From Desulfonatronum lacustre DSM 10312 (GTDB lineage: Bacteria > Desulfobacterota > Desulfovibrionia > Desulfovibrionales > Desulfonatronaceae), in assembly GCF_000519265.1 (NCBI RefSeq), contig NZ_KI912608.1, forward strand, positions 1,067,665 through 1,131,664: a stretch of 64,000 nt of DNA, in the 5' to 3' direction. The notes under the pieces were generated by a model. It saw nothing but the letters and a program-made list of their open reading frames with translations. It was not told where the DNA came from and searched no databases. The position numbers were made by a program, and so were the translations under genes. This document shows, one piece after another, positions 53,543 through 64,000 of the stretch; within the stretch, counting starts at the first letter, position 1; the number at the start of each line of letters is the position of its first letter.

Positions 53543-53654
53543 TATCGGATCGGTATCGAAATCGAAATCGAAATCGTGATCGAAATCGAACGTCATATCA
53601 AGAAGATGGCGTCATCACGGCGTGAAGCACGTATTTTCCGATTTCGATTTCGAT
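53543..53654. repeat. Palindromic element with ATCGAA hexamer arms, copy 2 (reverse)
   Basis: The left arm (53543-53590) is tandem ATCGAA units, the right arm (53638-53654) their complement. The centre, read on the minus strand, contains CCGTGATGACG and ATGACGTTCGATTTCGAT as in copy 1 at 12324-12442. It lies in the 386-bp gap 53389-53774 upstream of feoB. The remaining sequence in this gap shows no gene. Confidence 0.85.
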
Positions 53655-53774
53655 GCCCTTGAACCAAGCAAGGGTAACTTGACGGCCTTCGGAAAGCTTG
53701 GGAAGGAAAGCGACCACCGGCGGGAACGGACGAAGTACCTTTCCCGCCACCCATATGACGAACGTGAGACGACC

Positions 53775-55769
53775 ATGACCATCTGTGACCAATGCGACAC
53801 CTCCTGCCGTGCCGACGCCCACAAGGGGCCCAGCCCCCATTATGTGTTCATCGGCACGATGAAAGTCGGCAAGAGCACCTTGTACGACCGGTTGACCGCT
53901 TCCGACTGCGCTGAAATCGCGATCCCCGGCATCGCGGTCTCCATTCCTCGGGGACGGCTCAAGGGGCGAGACGGAACGGCCCTGGACACGCCGGGCATCC
54001 ATTCTCTGTTCTCCACCAACGAGGATGAACGGGCCTCCCGGGACATTCTGCTGTCCCCGGAAATCCCGGGCGAAGACCTGCGTCTCGTCCTGGTGGCGGA
54101 CGCCAAAAACCTGAAGCGGACCATCGCCATCGCCCTGCAGTTCGCGGAATACGGGCTGCCCATGCTTCTGGTCGTGAACATGGTCGACGAGGCCGCATCC
54201 CGAGGCATTGAGATCGACTACGCCAAGCTTTCAGAAAAGCTGGGCATGCGCGTAATGACCACCATTGCCCGGGAAGGAATCGGGGTGCGGGAGCTCGGCC
54301 GGGCTTTGGACGACGTCCGGCCGATGAAGCCTCTTGTGACGTACTCCCAGCGGGTCGAACAGTTTCTTTCGGTGGTGCAGAAATTGATGCCTTCAAGCCC
54401 GTTTTCTTCCAGGGCCTTGGGCATCCTGCTGCTCACCGAGGACACGGCCGTGGAACGATACATCCTGGATAAATACGGGGCCGGAATGCTCGACCAGCTT
54501 CACCGACTCGCCGAGGAAGCCCGTCGGGAAAGGCCCCTTGCCGTGGATATCGAGTTGAGCAACCTCTACCAGGCCGAGGCCGCCAGGATCGCCGAACAGG
54601 TTCAAAAGGTCGAACCGCCAACCAAAAGTTCGCTGATCCTCTCCTTCGGCGACTGGTGCACCCAACTTTCCACCGGCATTCCCATTGCCCTGGGTATTCT
54701 CGTGCTCCTGTACTATTTCATCGGGGCCTTTGGGGCCACCTTCCTGGTGGATACGATCCACGACCAACTCTTCGAGGCCCACCTGATTCCGCTGCTCGCG
54801 GCCCTGGTGGACTTCATTCCCAGCGCCTTGATCCGGGAGATGCTCATGGACCCGGATTTCGGCGTGTTTCCCACCGGGGTCTTTCTGGCCCTGGGGCTGG
54901 TCATGCCGGTGATCTTCTGCTTCTACATCGCCTTCGGTTTTCTGCAGGACTCCGGATACCTGGTCCGGATTTCCATTCTTCTGGACCGGGTCTTCCGCCT
55001 GATCGGCCTGAACGGCAAGGGCGTGATCCCTCTGGTCATGGGCTTTTCCTGCGTGACCATGTCCATCCTGACCACACGGGTACTCAGTACGGACAAGGAA
55101 AAAAACATCGCCTCGTTCCTGGTCTTTCTGTGCCTGCCGTGCGCCCCGCTGCTGGCGGTGATGATGATCATTCTGGCCAAGATGCCCGTCTCCGCCTCCA
55201 TCACGGTTTATGGATTGATTTTTTCGCAACTGCTCCTGGCCGGCTGGCTGGCGAACAAGGTCATTCCGGGCAAGCGCTCTCACCTGATCCTGGAAATCCC
55301 GACCATGCGCCTGCCCAAGCCCTGGCCGGTGATCAAAATGGCCTCTCAGAAGACCTTTTTTTTCATCAAGGAGGCTTTGCCGATCTTTGTCCTGGCCTCG
55401 ATGTTCATCTTCCTCTTCCAGCGCGTGGGCGGGCTGAACGCCCTGGAAGCCGCCCTGGGGCCGGTGATCAACACGGTCATGGGCCTTCCGGAACAGAGCA
55501 TCCAGGTGTTCATCAAGACCATGATCCGCCGGGAAAGCGGCGTGGCCGAACTGGAGCACCTCAGCCCCCTGTTCACCAACCTGCAAATCGTGGTCAACCT
55601 GGTGCTGATGACCTTTCTGGCCCCATGCATCAACGCGACCATCGTCCTGTTCAAGGAACGCGGCGCCCGGGCCGGGGCCTTGATCTTGGGCACGGTAACG
55701 GTCTACGCCATCGTCCTGGCCGGCCTGCTGAACCACGTGTGTCGCTTGGCCGGGATCACCTTCACATAG
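53775..55769 (+). CDS. feoB: Ferrous iron transporter FeoB
   Basis: A 664-residue inner-membrane Fe(II) transporter from the ATG at 53775. An N-terminal CDQCDTSC motif is followed by a G domain: G1 FIGTMKVGKSTL, G3 DTPG, G4 NMVDEA. After a helical linker come about 9-10 transmembrane segments with two gate regions (GLVMPVIFCFYIAFGFLQDSG region, VMGFSCVTMSILTTRVLSTD, NLQIVVNLVLMTFLAPCINA). The G1 sequence is slightly unlike the usual GNPNSGKT. A DtxR-FeoA regulator follows 26 bp downstream, forming an iron uptake operon. Confidence 0.92.
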   Translation: MTICDQCDTSCRADAHKGPSPHYVFIGTMKVGKSTLYDRLTASDCAEIAIPGIAVSIPRGRLKGRDGTALDTPGIHSLFSTNEDERASRDILLSPEIPGEDLRLVLVADAKNLKRTIAIALQFAEYGLPMLLVVNMVDEAASRGIEIDYAKLSEKLGMRVMTTIAREGIGVRELGRALDDVRPMKPLVTYSQRVEQFLSVVQKLMPSSPFSSRALGILLLTEDTAVERYILDKYGAGMLDQLHRLAEEARRERPLAVDIELSNLYQAEAARIAEQVQKVEPPTKSSLILSFGDWCTQLSTGIPIALGILVLLYYFIGAFGATFLVDTIHDQLFEAHLIPLLAALVDFIPSALIREMLMDPDFGVFPTGVFLALGLVMPVIFCFYIAFGFLQDSGYLVRISILLDRVFRLIGLNGKGVIPLVMGFSCVTMSILTTRVLSTDKEKNIASFLVFLCLPCAPLLAVMMIILAKMPVSASITVYGLIFSQLLLAGWLANKVIPGKRSHLILEIPTMRLPKPWPVIKMASQKTFFFIKEALPIFVLASMFIFLFQRVGGLNALEAALGPVINTVMGLPEQSIQVFIKTMIRRESGVAELEHLSPLFTNLQIVVNLVLMTFLAPCINATIVLFKERGARAGALILGTVTVYAIVLAGLLNHVCRLAGITFT

Positions 55770-55795
55770 CGTCTTCGACACAAGGATCATCAACC

Positions 55796-56476
55796 ATGGA
55801 ACACAAACACGAGGAAATTCTGGAGGCCGTGCTCTGCGCCAGCGAATGCGGAAAGTACGCTCTGGAGGACGTCAGAAAGTACTGTTGCGTGGATTTTTCG
55901 GATGAGGATGTTTCTGAACTGGAACGCCAAGGTCTGCTCGTCCGCGGCGAGGGCAAGATCCTGTTTTCCCGGGAGGGCAAGGCCCATGCCGAAAAGATCA
56001 TGCGTCGGCACCGCCTGGCCGAGGTGTTGCTCAAGAGCATTCTGAAACTCAAAAACTCGGAAATGGAAAAGATCGCCTGCGAGGTGGAGCACGCCCTGCT
56101 GCCCGAAGTGGAGGAATCCATCTGCACCTTGCTGGGCCATCCGGAAATCTGTCCGGACGGCAAGCCCATCCCCAAAGGCCCGTGCTGTCACGCCGGACAG
56201 CGGACCATCAGCAACACGGTGGTCGGCCTGGACGAACTGCAACCCGGCGAGAAAGGCACCATCACCTACATCAAGCCCGGCAGCCACTCCAACCTGCAAC
56301 AGCTCATCTCGCTGGGCCTGAATCCGGGAACAGTGGTCACGGTCCACCGCAAGACCCCGGCCTTCTGCATCAAATACGAGCAGACCGAACTGGCCTTGGA
56401 CGACGAAATCGCCAAGAATATTTTTGTCTGGAAAGTGCTGGGAGAAGAAGGCCGGGCTACTGAGGCGCGGGCCTGA
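55796..56476 (+). CDS. DtxR-family metalloregulator with C-terminal FeoA domain
   Basis: A 226-residue protein. Residues 1-70 are winged helix (VRGEGKILFSREGKAHAEKI), 75-135 the dimer/metal domain (RHRLAEVLL, CEVEHALLPEVEESICTLLG, HPEICPDGKPIPKG), and about 150-220 a FeoA/SH3-like domain (LQPGEKGTITYIKPG, LISLGLNPGTVVTVHRKTPA). It probably represses the feo genes in the presence of Fe(II); the FeoA part may bind FeoB. The order feoB-dtxR/feoA is typical in Desulfovibrionales. Confidence 0.9.
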   Translation: MEHKHEEILEAVLCASECGKYALEDVRKYCCVDFSDEDVSELERQGLLVRGEGKILFSREGKAHAEKIMRRHRLAEVLLKSILKLKNSEMEKIACEVEHALLPEVEESICTLLGHPEICPDGKPIPKGPCCHAGQRTISNTVVGLDELQPGEKGTITYIKPGSHSNLQQLISLGLNPGTVVTVHRKTPAFCIKYEQTELALDDEIAKNIFVWKVLGEEGRATEARA

Positions 56477-56494: not shown

Positions 56495-57700
56495 CTATCC
56501 GTTTCCCATCGGCAAACGTACGCGCAACGTCGTTCCCTGGCCGACGACGCTCTCCAAACGGACTTCGCCTCCGTGGGCTTGGACAATTCGTTTGACGATG
56601 CTCAGGCCCAGGCCGGTGCTGCGTTCTCCGGCGGTGGGCCGGGCCGAGGCCTTGGCAAAAGGCTGGAAGAGCTTGGCCTGGTCTTCCGGGCTGATGCCCG
56701 GTCCATGATCCTGGACCGTTAACAGCAGATCCTTCTCTTTCCGGGCCAGGCTGATTTCGACCCGGCTCTCCGCGCTGCTGAACTTCACGGCGTTGCTGAC
56801 CAGGTTGTCCACCACCTGGGTCAGGCGACCGCGATCCCCTTGGATGACGTGCGGCCCCTCTCCCTGGACGGCGAACACCAGCTCCACGCCCTTGGCCTCG
56901 GCCGAGGTCCGGGCGTAGGATATCTGCTGGGAGATCAACGCTTCCAGGTCCACGGTTTCCAGTTCCAGGGTCAACTTGCCGGACTCGATCTGGGAAAAGT
57001 CCAGTAGGTCCGAGATCAATTGCAGCAGAAAGCCGCAGCTCGAATCGATCAATTGGAAATACAGCGCGGAGTCTTCATTGAGTTTGCCTTGAAGCTCACC
57101 CTGGAGCAGTTGGCTCAGATTCCGGATATTCCCGATGGGATTGCGCAGGTCGTGGGCCGCGATGCCCAGAAATAGGTTCTTCTGCTGATCCAAGGCTTCC
57201 AGTGCACGGGTCTTCTTGACCAGATCCCGCTGCATGGTCACCAACTCGTTGTTCAGCCGGGTGACCTCCTCGTAACCTTCCAGATTCATCAAATGCAGTT
57301 CGTCGGCCAGTTCCTTGCGCCTCTTGACCTCGGCCCGGAGCAAGGTGATCTGGTCGCCGTGCATGCTGAGGATCTCTTCATAAAGTTCCATGACCGAGTT
57401 GATGTCCTCGGCCCCGACTATGACCGTTTGCTTCTCATGGCGGATTCCGGTGAACCGGAGAATGGTCACCGTGTTGTTGGTAGACACGCCCAGCTCCCAG
57501 TCCAGGACAATGCCGCTTTTTCGAATTTCCTCCAGAAAGTTCCGGGCTTTAATCAGGGACGTGGGATGGACGAAGGCCGTGAACGGCAACCCGGCGGGAA
57601 CATTCTCGAACCGGTTGCGCTCGTCGGCGAGCACTTCCCGGACAACCCCCATGTCGTCGCAAAGCAGAGCGATGACGTTGCGGTGTTCGGTTCGCTTCAT
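56495..57700 (-). CDS. Sensor histidine kinase, coupled to the B12-binding protein
   Basis: A 401-residue soluble kinase. An N-terminal PAS-like part (1-115) is followed by a coiled coil (about 120-175, HLMNLEGYEEVTRLNNELV), HisKA with GIAAHDLRNPIGNIRNLSQL, and a HATPase with NLVSNAVKFSSAESR, DHGPGISPED, STGLGLSIVKRIV. It has no membrane segment. Its ATG overlaps the stop of the B12-binding gene (ATGA at 57697-57700), so the two are made together; the cobalamin protein may be its sensor input. No response regulator is adjacent. Confidence 0.9.
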   Translation of the reverse strand: MKRTEHRNVIALLCDDMGVVREVLADERNRFENVPAGLPFTAFVHPTSLIKARNFLEEIRKSGIVLDWELGVSTNNTVTILRFTGIRHEKQTVIVGAEDINSVMELYEEILSMHGDQITLLRAEVKRRKELADELHLMNLEGYEEVTRLNNELVTMQRDLVKKTRALEALDQQKNLFLGIAAHDLRNPIGNIRNLSQLLQGELQGKLNEDSALYFQLIDSSCGFLLQLISDLLDFSQIESGKLTLELETVDLEALISQQISYARTSAEAKGVELVFAVQGEGPHVIQGDRGRLTQVVDNLVSNAVKFSSAESRVEISLARKEKDLLLTVQDHGPGISPEDQAKLFQPFAKASARPTAGERSTGLGLSIVKRIVQAHGGEVRLESVVGQGTTLRVRLPMGNG

Positions 57701-58404
57701 GGTCGTCTCCCGGAATCCAGGAGACGATCGGCCACCGCAATGGCCTGATGGGCGTCCGCGGCAAAGGCATGCGCTCCCACGCCCTTCCAAAGCTGCTGAT
57801 TGGCCAGAAAAGGATATCCGCCGACCATGATCTTGACGTCGCGGCATTCCGGACGGCTGCGAATGCGCAGGATCAAGCGACCCACGAGGTGCAGGTGGAA
57901 GGTCATGGTCACGGAGATGCCCACCACGCCGGCCTTCTGCTCGACGATGGTCCGGATTACGTCCTCGTCCGGGGTATTGGCTCCCATATAGTAGGTGTCC
58001 CAGCCTTCCATTTCAAAAAAGTCCGTGACCATGCGCATCCCGATCTCGTGCAACTCCCCACCCACGCAGCAGCCCACGAACCTGTGCCCGGTCTGCTTAC
58101 CGCTGAAAATGTAAGGATAAAGCAAGGACATGGCGAACTGCGTCGCCGCGGTGCAGTAATGCTCCTGGGCCACGGAGACCTGGTTGCGTTGCCAGAGGTC
58201 GCCAACCTCGTAGAGAACAGGCTGAAATACCCGCAGATAGACGTCCTTGACGGAAACCCCGTTCTCCACGGCCTTCAGCACCACTTCCGTCGCTTCCTTG
58301 CGTTTGGCCGCCAGCAACAAACGCAGGTAGTCACGGGCCAACTCGGCATGCTCGCCGGCCATCTCCGAAAGGCCGACAAATAAAGGCATACGCTCCTGAT
58401 TCAT
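57697..58404 (-). CDS. Cobalamin-binding protein with B12-photoreceptor signature (Wx9EH)
   Basis: A 235-residue protein: helical B12-binding cap (about 15-100) and Rossmann-like B12 domain (about 105-235). W71QRNQVSVAQE81H82 fits the W-x9-EH signature known from adenosylcobalamin light sensors (CarH/LitR type). The base-off motif is E117-L-H119-E-I-G (ExHxxG), with GVVGISVTM and VGGYPF further on. It lacks a DNA-binding domain. Its stop overlaps the start of a histidine kinase, implying that light or cobalamin state is signalled through the kinase. Known of the family: light cleaves the cobalt-carbon bond. Inferred here. Confidence 0.85.
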   Translation of the reverse strand: MNQERMPLFVGLSEMAGEHAELARDYLRLLLAAKRKEATEVVLKAVENGVSVKDVYLRVFQPVLYEVGDLWQRNQVSVAQEHYCTAATQFAMSLLYPYIFSGKQTGHRFVGCCVGGELHEIGMRMVTDFFEMEGWDTYYMGANTPDEDVIRTIVEQKAGVVGISVTMTFHLHLVGRLILRIRSRPECRDVKIMVGGYPFLANQQLWKGVGAHAFAADAHQAIAVADRLLDSGRRP

Positions 58405-58446: not shown

Positions 58447-59301
58447 TTAGCCATCCTTGGTACTGTAAAAACCGTTATAGGTCCAGGTCAGGGCCAGGGC
58501 GAAAAGGGCCGCGGCCACGCCGATTCCGGCGTCGTAATACGGCGGCGCGGTCAGGGACAGGCGCAGCAACAGGGTGGATACGGCATATCCGGAGTTGCGC
58601 AGTACTGCGTGAAAGGTCGGCAGGAATCGATGGGAAACCAGAACCAACAGGATATCGCTGAAGATCAGGACCGTGTAAAAAGTGGCGAAAAAGGCAAAAG
58701 CACGGTCTCCGAAGAAAAAGTCCCAACCCCCATAGACCGCCAGGGCGATGAACACCGCCAGCAGGCCCAGGGCCACCAGCTTCTTGGCCGCCACGAAACG
58801 GTACCGGGTCTCGCCGGTCATCAGTTCGCCGCGCTGCTTCTGCTGGCGGTAGTAAAGACCGAGGATTACGAAGATGGCCAGGGCCCCGAAGCCGTCGGAC
58901 AGAATCCGCAGCACCGGCATCATGTCCGTGCCGAGCTGGATGGGCTCGGGCAGATAGACCAGTTCCTTGAAGGAGTTGCGCAACAAGATCAGCGCCAGAA
59001 TCTCGAACTGCTTGCCCACGGACTTGGAAACCGAGCAGGGCAGCACGAAGATCAGGCTGACCACCTCCACCAGTAAAACCAGGGTAAAGGCCGCGTTGAT
59101 GGCCTGAAAATGGCTCAACCCGACCACCCCTTGCAGGGACGCCGGCAACATTCCTTGCCGGTTCAGTTCGATCAGTCCCAGGGAGACCAGGAACAGGGTC
59201 ACCAGCAAGACCGTGACCACCTTGCGGTTGGCCTCGGACTCCCAGTAGGCGTGCAGGGGGTCGAAGACGTGGGTTGCGGCGTCGTAGACCCGGGTGGTCA
59301 T
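58447..59301 (-). CDS. Polytopic membrane protein of the Mla operon, unknown
   Basis: A 284-residue protein with about seven transmembrane helices, beginning MTTRVYDAATHVFDPLHAY. Notable hydrophobic stretches are VVTVLLVTLFLVSLGLIEL, AINAAFTLVLLVEVVSLIFV, LVALGLLAVFIALAVYGG and VLIFSDILLVLVSHRFLP. No family recognised. Its ATG overlaps the stop of the upstream auxiliary lipoprotein gene (ATGA), so it is the last gene of the Mla-type transcription unit. Confidence 0.75.
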   Translation of the reverse strand: MTTRVYDAATHVFDPLHAYWESEANRKVVTVLLVTLFLVSLGLIELNRQGMLPASLQGVVGLSHFQAINAAFTLVLLVEVVSLIFVLPCSVSKSVGKQFEILALILLRNSFKELVYLPEPIQLGTDMMPVLRILSDGFGALAIFVILGLYYRQQKQRGELMTGETRYRFVAAKKLVALGLLAVFIALAVYGGWDFFFGDRAFAFFATFYTVLIFSDILLVLVSHRFLPTFHAVLRNSGYAVSTLLLRLSLTAPPYYDAGIGVAAALFALALTWTYNGFYSTKDG

Positions 59302-63445: not shown

Positions 63446-64000
63446 TTATCCTCGTGATTGGTTGCGGTTTTTCAGCACGTCGAGAATCGCCCGCCGCAAG
63501 GCCTCGATGCTGAACGGTTTTTGCAAAAACGCCCCGGGACGGTCGGCGGCGAAGCGCTGCTCCGCTTCCCGTGAACTGTATCCACTGCACAGGACCACCG
63601 GGACGTCCGGCGCGATCTTGCGCAGTTTCGTGAACGCCGTGACCCCGTCCATGTTCGGCATCATCAGATCCAGGACCACGCAGCCGATCCGCTGATGGTT
63701 TTCCTGAAAAACCCGGACCGCCTCGACGCCGTCCTTGGCCGTGATCACCGCATACCCAAGATGTCTCAAGGCTTCAACCGAGAGGTCCCGGACCATTTCC
63801 TCGTCGTCCACGACCAGGATCAGTTCCGGCTCTGGATGAACGTCGCTTCCGGCTTCGGCGACCGGATTCGAGGTCAACGACGGCTCCGGAAGCGGGGAGC
63901 TCTTCACTATTGCATCGTCCACCGGAAAAAGCACGTGAAACGTGGTCCCCGAGTCCGGAGCGCTGTCCACGATGATCGCTCCGCGATGACCGCGCACGAT
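63446..64000 (-). CDS. C-terminal part of a hybrid histidine kinase with receiver domain (partial)
   Basis: The 5' end is outside the window. Visible are the end of a HATPase (RGHRGAIIVDSAPDSGTTFH, VLFP) and a receiver domain (VVDDEEMVRDLS, phospho-Asp in CVVLDLMMPNMDG, LCSGYSSREAE, FLQKPF). Hybrid kinases with the C-terminal motif LCSGYS are common in this group. The start lies beyond 64000. It is 4 bp upstream of the SMR gene. Confidence 0.88.
   Translation of the reverse strand: MVRGHRGAIIVDSAPDSGTTFHVLFPVDDAIVKSSPLPEPSLTSNPVAEAGSDVHPEPELILVVDDEEMVRDLSVEALRHLGYAVITAKDGVEAVRVFQENHQRIGCVVLDLMMPNMDGVTAFTKLRKIAPDVPVVLCSGYSSREAEQRFAADRPGAFLQKPFSIEALRRAILDVLKNRNQSRG

Follow-up and report, generated by a model that had tools for sequence, protein, structure and literature searches.

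We analyzed a 64,000-nucleotide (nt) stretch of the Desulfonatronum lacustre DSM 10312 genome (contig NZ_KI912608.1, positions 1,067,665 to 1,131,664 of the forward strand), hereafter the window, whose coordinates count from its first letter. Our subject is a pair of overlapping genes on the minus strand, the strand of every feature of the pair given below. The upstream gene (57697..58404), recognized by its open frame with an ATG start, Pfam, an AlphaFold model and a structural match to photocobilins, encodes a predicted cobalamin-binding, light-type sensor protein of 235 residues (CBD, a term used also for the corresponding domain of other proteins). The downstream gene (56495..57700) encodes an apparently soluble histidine kinase of 401 residues, assigned from its HisKA and HATPase_c domains, a structure model and hydropathy. 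The two share the 4 nt ATGA (57697..57700), in which the TGA stop of the CBD overlaps the ATG start of the kinase (57698-57700). A 450-residue open frame that begins at 57847 is merely the longest one available; the kinase itself starts at this ATG.

In the CBD, Pfam recognized B12-binding_2 (63.6 bits, residues 23-95) and B12-binding (78.5 bits, residues 109-217), and no DNA-binding domain scored over the Pfam cut-off. Pfam and the model helices place a helical-bundle part at residues 20-99 (58108..58347), which contains W71 (58192..58194) and E81-H82 (58159..58164); Pfam and the model place a Rossmann-type B12-binding part at residues 104-233 (57706..58095), which includes H119 (58048..58050), the predicted lower cobalt ligand. 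A published signature of light-responsive cobalamin domains comprises GxxW, EH, GxxH and GxxxP (SignatureFinder, PMC11796333). The window CBD carries it complete, as G68-DL-W71, nine residues, E81-H82, then G116-EL-H119 (within E117-L-H119-E-I-G) and G141-ANT-P145. In an alignment with 80 close relatives, the columns of W71, E81, H82 and H119 are identical in all 81 rows, the window included, with the caveat that W or EH is part of two of the six peptide patterns by which the 80 were retrieved. All four signature parts are present together in 59 of the 81 rows, the G of GxxH being found in 64 and the P of GxxxP in 76. When the CBD's own letters were shuffled, GxxW-x9-EH arose in 62 of 100,000 shuffles; given this and the column identity, the motif is not a chance string. 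A profile search over 247 phylum genomes, made without our patterns, supplied 21 further loci to examine, the window's own (L155) among them, and Wx9EH lies within the CBD frame in all 21. Gln follows W71, as in the photoactive SasPcob, and the position of CarH His132 is taken by Gln both here and in SasPcob.

The kinase scored over the Pfam cut-offs for HisKA (55.0 bits, residues 173-241) and HATPase_c (108.7 bits, residues 288-398), which together form a core at residues 173-398 (56507..57184). The predicted phospho-acceptor, H183 (57152-57154), falls in a nearly invariant column, so that the protein has the makeup of a HisKA-type sensor kinase. Hydropathy peaks at 1.23 over 19 residues, and there is accordingly no obvious membrane segment. 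In the AlphaFold model (mean predicted local distance difference test score, pLDDT, 85.4; predicted template-modeling score, pTM, 0.58), the N-terminal domain (residues 8-112, 57365..57679) shows a PAS-like order of strands and helices. This domain gave no Pfam match and no PDB sequence match. A predicted signaling helix or coiled coil (residues 118-172, 57185..57349) follows, as part of a continuous model helix, 118-202, that runs into the kinase core. Foldseek matches to the whole-length model include LOV-kinase and bacteriophytochrome entries. Taken with the hydropathy, these models suggest a soluble kinase with a probably PAS-type N-terminus.

The original prediction, made from the letters of this DNA, had described a 235-residue cobalamin protein with W71-x9-E81H82 and ELHEIG, bearing the signature of adenosylcobalamin (AdoCbl) light sensors, lacking a DNA-binding domain and translationally coupled to a soluble PAS-like kinase. 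Its account of the CBD is borne out in each of these particulars, and the overlap of stop and start agrees with the coupling. For the kinase, solubility agrees with the hydropathy, and the PAS-like character holds for the model, with nothing to match it among Pfam or PDB sequences.

Is the CBD a light-type domain or a methyl carrier? Its AlphaFold model (mean pLDDT 92.5) best matches the photocobilins 8j2w/8j2y (Z 26.0, root-mean-square deviation 1.8-2.1 over 208-212 residues), with MetH (Z 22.3), CtMerR (21.8), AerR (20.4) and CarH (20.2 and below) further down. Fold alone does not exclude a methyl carrier, so residues and tree decide. For this we compared 63 sequences: a light set of 29 (the window, 22 relatives, two MerR-type CarH-like proteins, SasPcob, AbDPcob, CtMerR and TtCarH), 18 from the window's order and 16 of the methyltransferase/MetH type. 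All 29 light rows have W, E and H, as do 17 of the 18 order rows (the exception is L108). EH is absent from L108 and from all 16 methyltransferase/MetH rows, 15 of which carry Phe or Tyr instead of Trp. In the tree, one branch (support 100/97) splits off these 16 rows together with L108, and the window and its congeners lie within a 28-row family of relatives (100/98). Three long branches, those of CtMerR, the CarH-like L132 and the own-genome paralogue L006, are placed unsurely, and none of these is the window row. The tree took in 22 of the 80 close loci and 18 of 30 order loci, leaving out the window's own order locus, L092 (a duplicate of L009) and ten weaker matches (L109-L118). L136, L138 and L139, which lack W-x9-EH, and L125-L128 and L144, which repeat earlier loci, were also left out. 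The CBD model reached three of eight own-genome PF02310 loci (L001, L002, L006) and 23 of 27 in another locus set.

Tree and pocket residues led us to reject identity with a methyltransferase corrinoid carrier. As an MtbC/MtmC/MttC/MtgC-type protein, the CBD scored 59.3 bits with TIGR02370 against a cut-off of 215.3, and it falls elsewhere in the tree. A closer grouping with methyltransferase corrinoid proteins, an outcome that the original prediction had said would count against it, was not found. Membership of CarH/LitR was also ruled out: there is no MerR domain, and NF052513 gave 58 bits against its cut-off of 400, a cut-off missed also by the two MerR-type CarH-like proteins (159.7 and 103.5 bits). 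With CarH and LitR, to which the original prediction had suggested an alignment, the CBD shares the pocket signature and not the protein type. These sequence comparisons support the CBD as a light-type cobalamin domain and not a methyltransferase corrinoid protein.

To place the protein among its relatives, we scanned 84,980 species genomes with peptide patterns. This gave 194 confirmed relatives, the best 80 of which (46-80% identity) are the close loci; record titles include Desulfovibrionales, Anaerolineae, Bacteroidetes, Thiomargarita, Planctomycetota, Paenibacillus, Acidobacteriota, Lokiarchaeota and Methanolobus. In 71 of the 80, more than 100 residues precede the CBD. Among eight CBD proteins tested, this N-terminal part scored over the cut-off of PF00502 (Phycobilisome) in four (L015, L010, L026, L063). 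From the close loci we picked rows for spread, length and clear starts: A1, the window plus 39 of the 80; A2, the window plus 42 of 76 downstream proteins; and A3, the window plus 19. PF00502 matched at E 0.01 or better in 17 of the 40 A1 rows, 31 of which have the extension, so diverged globins escape Pfam (at most 17 of 31 extension-bearing rows match). A globin followed by a CBD is the plan of photoglobins and photocobilins (PMC10979010, PMC10151467). A further five of the 80 show a separate globin-model match nearby, strong in L050 and weak in L033, L066 (on the other strand), L067 and L086. Four of the 80 (L009, L016, L023, L042) gave no globin match within the flanking DNA examined. The globin model, like the partner-domain model used below, was built from these same loci, so that counts for the source rows are partly by construction.

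The window protein has the photocobilin-type CBD fold with W-x9-EH and E/DxH. Close, globin-free CBD-kinase pairs occur in three of seven other genomes of the genus (G005, 90% identical; G003, 83%; G001, 80%). The globin model found no match in the window or in the 17-18 kilobases (kb) around the pair in the three congeners, and the window genome gave no PF00502 match. Because most close relatives are photocobilin-type globin-CBD proteins, the window CBD has probably lost its bilin-globin domain. The original prediction of a stand-alone sensor holds for this protein, and the form is unusual among its 80 closest relatives.

We also considered heme oxygenase, for which the window genome gave no match, as support for loss of the bilin. 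This fails as a rule and was dropped as evidence: a heme-oxygenase match was found in 2 of 11 globin-bearing genomes (G062, G153) and in one of four globin-less ones (G003, the others being G000, G001 and G005). In one of the former (G153:C3:11091-12968, L150), a photoglobin-CBD gene is followed by a kinase gene, and a heme-oxygenase match lies ~0.3 kb off on the opposite strand; this arrangement fits bilin use by the globin-bearing form.

Two further groups deserve mention. L096-L101, from the same order, form a second, shorter CBD-plus-kinase subfamily (211-229 residues, 35-40% identical) that keeps W-x9-EH, with Glu after the Trp; one member has a weak split-globin match. Here the partner domain described below is absent or barely matched (L100, E 5e-4; a cut neighbor in L096, E 4e-5). 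L102-L107 are CBD proteins of 368-423 residues with W-x9-EH in a clade of their own, and their N-terminal region of ~150-200 residues has no clear Pfam domain in the four of six scanned.

Association with a kinase is regular among the close relatives. In 80 of 80 close loci, the CBD gene itself or the first fitting gene that starts within 600 nt downstream of it encodes a kinase, the domain found at the N-terminus of the window kinase (PAS-like by model, hereafter the partner domain), or both: 64 have partner domain and kinase, eight the partner domain with no kinase-model match, six a kinase only, and in two (L025, L080) CBD and kinase are fused in one frame. Among the 78 unfused relatives, 37 show the same -4 spacing (4-nt overlap) as the window, and in 63 a possible start lies no more than 30 nt from the stop codon of the CBD. 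The partner-domain model matched 63 of 70 CBD-adjacent kinases but only two of the 44 remaining kinases of the flanking DNA, and both exceptions (L033, L066) belong to CBD gene clusters.

The eight loci with no kinase-model match, together with L093, show the partner domain with other outputs or with none recognized. It is joined to a GGDEF diguanylate cyclase beside the CBD in L085 (5642-6652) and beside a globin-CBD in L093 (2226-3290), a member of the order; to a SpoIIE phosphatase beside the CBD gene in L066 (5585-6943); and to a HisKA_3 kinase in the downstream protein of L086. In L026, L038, L059, L073 and L076 (Adhaeribacter, Rufibacter), it makes up a protein of 164-200 residues with no kinase match, and a Pfam run on two of these (L026, L038) found no other domain. 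Because the domain recurs beside CBDs with different outputs, it seems to read the state of the CBD and to pass it to outputs that can be swapped, and it would contact the CBD directly. As a general companion of light-type CBDs it was rejected, being present in 72 of the 80 closest loci but, within flanks of ~1.5 kb, in 2 of the 21 phylum loci, and hardly matched in L096-L101.

We infer that the two genes encode a two-protein sensor, for which cofactor binding, light response, kinase contact and the direction of the effect are all predicted. The reading that we favor, with modest confidence, is that of a green-light/AdoCbl sensor of a sulfate-reducing host, acting in trans on the kinase encoded with it. 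That the host reduces sulfate is very likely, since its genome carries dsrA over the cut-off (589 bits), in line with the anaerobe originally proposed. AdoCbl is likely available to it, since CobA- and CobS-family genes are present. According to work on CarH, photocobilins and CtMerR, Trp stacks on the adenosyl group, Glu-His links across the dimer, and light removes the adenosyl group and shifts the Glu/His helix; in SasPcob the dimer then comes apart (PMC10979010, PMC11796333). The window CBD keeps these residues. By analogy, it would bind AdoCbl base-off in the dark, with His119 as the lower ligand and Trp71, Glu81 and His82 as a cap over the adenosyl group, and would dimerize head to tail, as do CarH and photocobilins. 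Green light would break the cobalt-carbon bond, release the adenosyl group, shift the Glu/His helix and do away with the dimer interface. The lit CBD might then act in trans on the PAS-like domain of the co-translated kinase and, through the long helix leading into the kinase core, alter autophosphorylation in either direction. Because the bilin-globin domain has probably been lost, only B12 photochemistry should remain, with no red-light response via biliverdin.

Several observations weigh against this reading. In the tree, a single fork joins the window family, SasPcob/AbDPcob and the methyl carriers, and the light set does not form one clade (six changes are needed). The methyl carrier MtmC, the monomethylamine corrinoid protein, is nearly as good a match in fold (Z 23.0), solved light-type CBDs are only 22-25% identical to the window CBD, and NCBIfam scores (MtbC 62.5, pyl_corrinoid 59.3, CarH 58.0 bits), all far below cut-off, leave the candidates undistinguished. 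The 235-residue protein has CBD domains only and so lacks the bilin-globin by which photocobilins are defined, and CarH His132 is replaced by Gln. Oxygen, without which CarH does not convert fully (PMC10442372), is rarely met by a sulfate reducer. No response regulator gene was recognized adjoining the CBD-kinase pair. Moreover, the closest relatives, in which the pairing is regular, were fetched with the window's own peptides. In the phylum sample, where 18 of the 247 genomes contain a relative that reaches E 1e-40, the pairing is much less regular: within flanks of ~1.5 kb, a kinase match comes after the CBD gene, or overlaps it, in 7 of 21 loci (L150, L153, L154, L159, L165, L166 and the window's L155), and the partner domain is present in two (L150 and L155). 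Kinase pairing is therefore a trait of the closest family and not of every light-type CBD.

The rival that we take most seriously, though on balance it seems unlikely, is a sensor of cobalamin availability or of redox state or oxygen, in which the CBD reports the state of AdoCbl or its cobalt to the kinase and light has no physiological part. AerR (Z 20.4) and the SCHIC domain of AppA (Z 20.1) share the CBD fold. These domains serve redox as well as light signaling. Several relatives come, by record title, from anaerobic groups or groups not known to be phototrophic (Syntrophobacteraceae, Syntrophaceae, Lokiarchaeota, Methanolobus), and CarH-type domains respond to oxygen through the redox state of cobalt (PMC10442372). 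Yet the W/E/H triad of the adenosyl pocket is conserved throughout the family, and most close relatives have a phycobilisome-like domain, which is sensible for light. Light and oxygen might also be read together, as a refinement that overlaps the light-sensor reading; we hold this as possible, tentatively. Since CarH needs oxygen for full conversion and integrates light with oxygen in its response (PMC10442372), photolysis without oxygen could halt at an intermediate cobalt state, and light plus oxygen would give the signaling state, by which an anaerobe might read 'sunlit and oxygenated'. CtMerR lit without oxygen is reported to change structure and not to monomerize (PMC11796333). The dsrA gene of the window genome agrees with such a role, as does a Desulfonatronum metagenome-assembled genome reported to express dsrAB in soda-lake mats (PMC6748926), where light and oxygen meet; the congener L009 ('Desulfovibrionales bacterium isolate GEM2.Bin26') may come from that mat study, to judge by its bin name. 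On the other side, the oxygen-gated step could be absent from the window CBD, which has Gln for CarH His132, just as the light state of SasPcob has no bis-His ligation (PMC10979010).

Two other explanations seem far less probable. A corrinoid methyl carrier for a methyltransferase encoded elsewhere, with the kinase gene as no more than a neighbor, would account for the shared fold (MtmC, Z 23.0) and the E/DxHxxG motif in a genome that has corrinoid enzymes (MetH-like L001). It is very improbable in view of the tree and of the lack of EH in 16 of 16 carriers; no methyltransferase was recognized among the five neighborhood proteins scanned, and a kinase or partner domain stands beside 80 of 80 close relatives. 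There is similarly little chance that the window holds one piece of a complete photocobilin whose bilin-globin is encoded in another part of the genome and acts in trans. The five relatives with a separate nearby globin-model match (L050, L086, L033, L067, L066) are precedents, and the globin negatives have a weak point in that diverged globins escape Pfam. But the genome gave no Phycobilisome-family or heme-oxygenase match, and the globin model none in the window or around the pair in the three congeners. A broader version of the favored reading is doubtful: a family of two-protein AdoCbl photoreceptors built on the unnamed PAS-like partner domain (with kinase, diguanylate cyclase, SpoIIE or no recognized output), whose bilin domain was dropped in part of the genus and which would serve as a light-and-oxygen alarm.

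Other genes surround the pair. An unnamed 284-residue protein with five hydrophobic segments is encoded 42 nt upstream of the CBD (58447..59301, minus strand), possibly in the same operon. It has no Pfam match, and among all loci compared its matches come from just three genomes, those of the window, G005 and G003; as a general partner of the CBD it is thereby ruled out. Farther upstream, a hybrid HAMP-PAS-kinase-receiver protein (receiver end at 63446-63997) is kept in the three congeners (L146, L147, L148), with Pfam run on L146, L147 and the part within the window. In L147, nothing but a 92-residue gene and the gene of the 284-residue hydrophobic protein stands between it and the CBD. An Mla-type transporter, judged by eye, seems to be encoded between hybrid kinase and CBD in the window, in L148/L009 and at least partly in L146; none of these genes was matched in L147. 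Beyond the kinase gene, on the opposite strand and convergent with it, positions 53622-56476 hold feoB (by Pfam) and then a regulator whose C-terminal half is FeoA-like by eye.

The type of CBD, its fold and its motif are already known. Two things are new within the literature searched: that a sulfate-reducing genus has a form without the globin, and that a domain with no Pfam family recurs as the partner of the CBD. A photoglobin paper by Schneider et al. (2022), cited in PMC10151467 and mentioned in PMC10979010, might include the kinase pairing already. Among the matches listed for sulfate reducers and light nothing relevant was found, and a literature search on such proteins together with kinases and archaea gave no paper; the word 'kinase' was not found in the main text of PMC10979010 and PMC11796333, so far as available. 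The AdoCbl photoreceptors that have experimental backing in the literature searched are either transcription factors or photocobilins, and one photocobilin has a fused cyclase. If our reading is right, kinase signaling in trans would widen B12 light sensing to two-component signaling, small separable modules would become available for green-light tools, and light sensing would extend to a non-phototrophic anaerobe. Globin-free and globin-bearing relatives offer a natural test of what the bilin domain contributes, and the partner domain is a concrete place to seek how the B12 switch reaches its output.

How does the window CBD compare with known systems? MtmC, MtbC, MttC and MetH share its cobalamin fold and a DxHxxG-type motif, but they are carriers without EH, 15 of 16 of them without Trp, on the other side of a supported branch. 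AerR and the AppA SCHIC domain are light/redox regulators with the cobalamin fold (Z 20.4 and 20.1) and 14-16% identity to the window CBD. Their partner is the repressor PpsR/CrtJ, which the fold antagonizes, and not a kinase. CarH and LitR have the AdoCbl pocket signature and the CBD fold (Z ~20) in common with it; the window protein differs in lacking a MerR domain, in having Gln for His132 and in its NF052513 score of 58 bits versus 400. CtMerR of Chloracidobacterium (8jbs/8jbt, PMC11796333), the top Foldseek match (E 1.5e-14), shares the light-type pocket, yet it is a MerR-family transcription factor with no kinase. Photoglobin-B12 proteins are closer: 71 of the 80 close relatives consist of an N-terminal extension plus a CBD, and those tested have the photoglobin architecture. 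The window CBD groups within these relatives but has no globin. The photocobilins SasPcob (8j2w/8j2x) and AbDPcob (8j2y; PMC10979010) share with it the fold, W-x9-EH and E/DxH, and in both the signaling output is other than DNA binding. They differ in having a biliverdin-binding globin domain, which is N-terminal in the window's relatives and C-terminal in SasPcob. The output of the window CBD is a separate kinase and not a fused diguanylate cyclase; identity is 24-25%, and the tree does not show the photocobilins as its sister.

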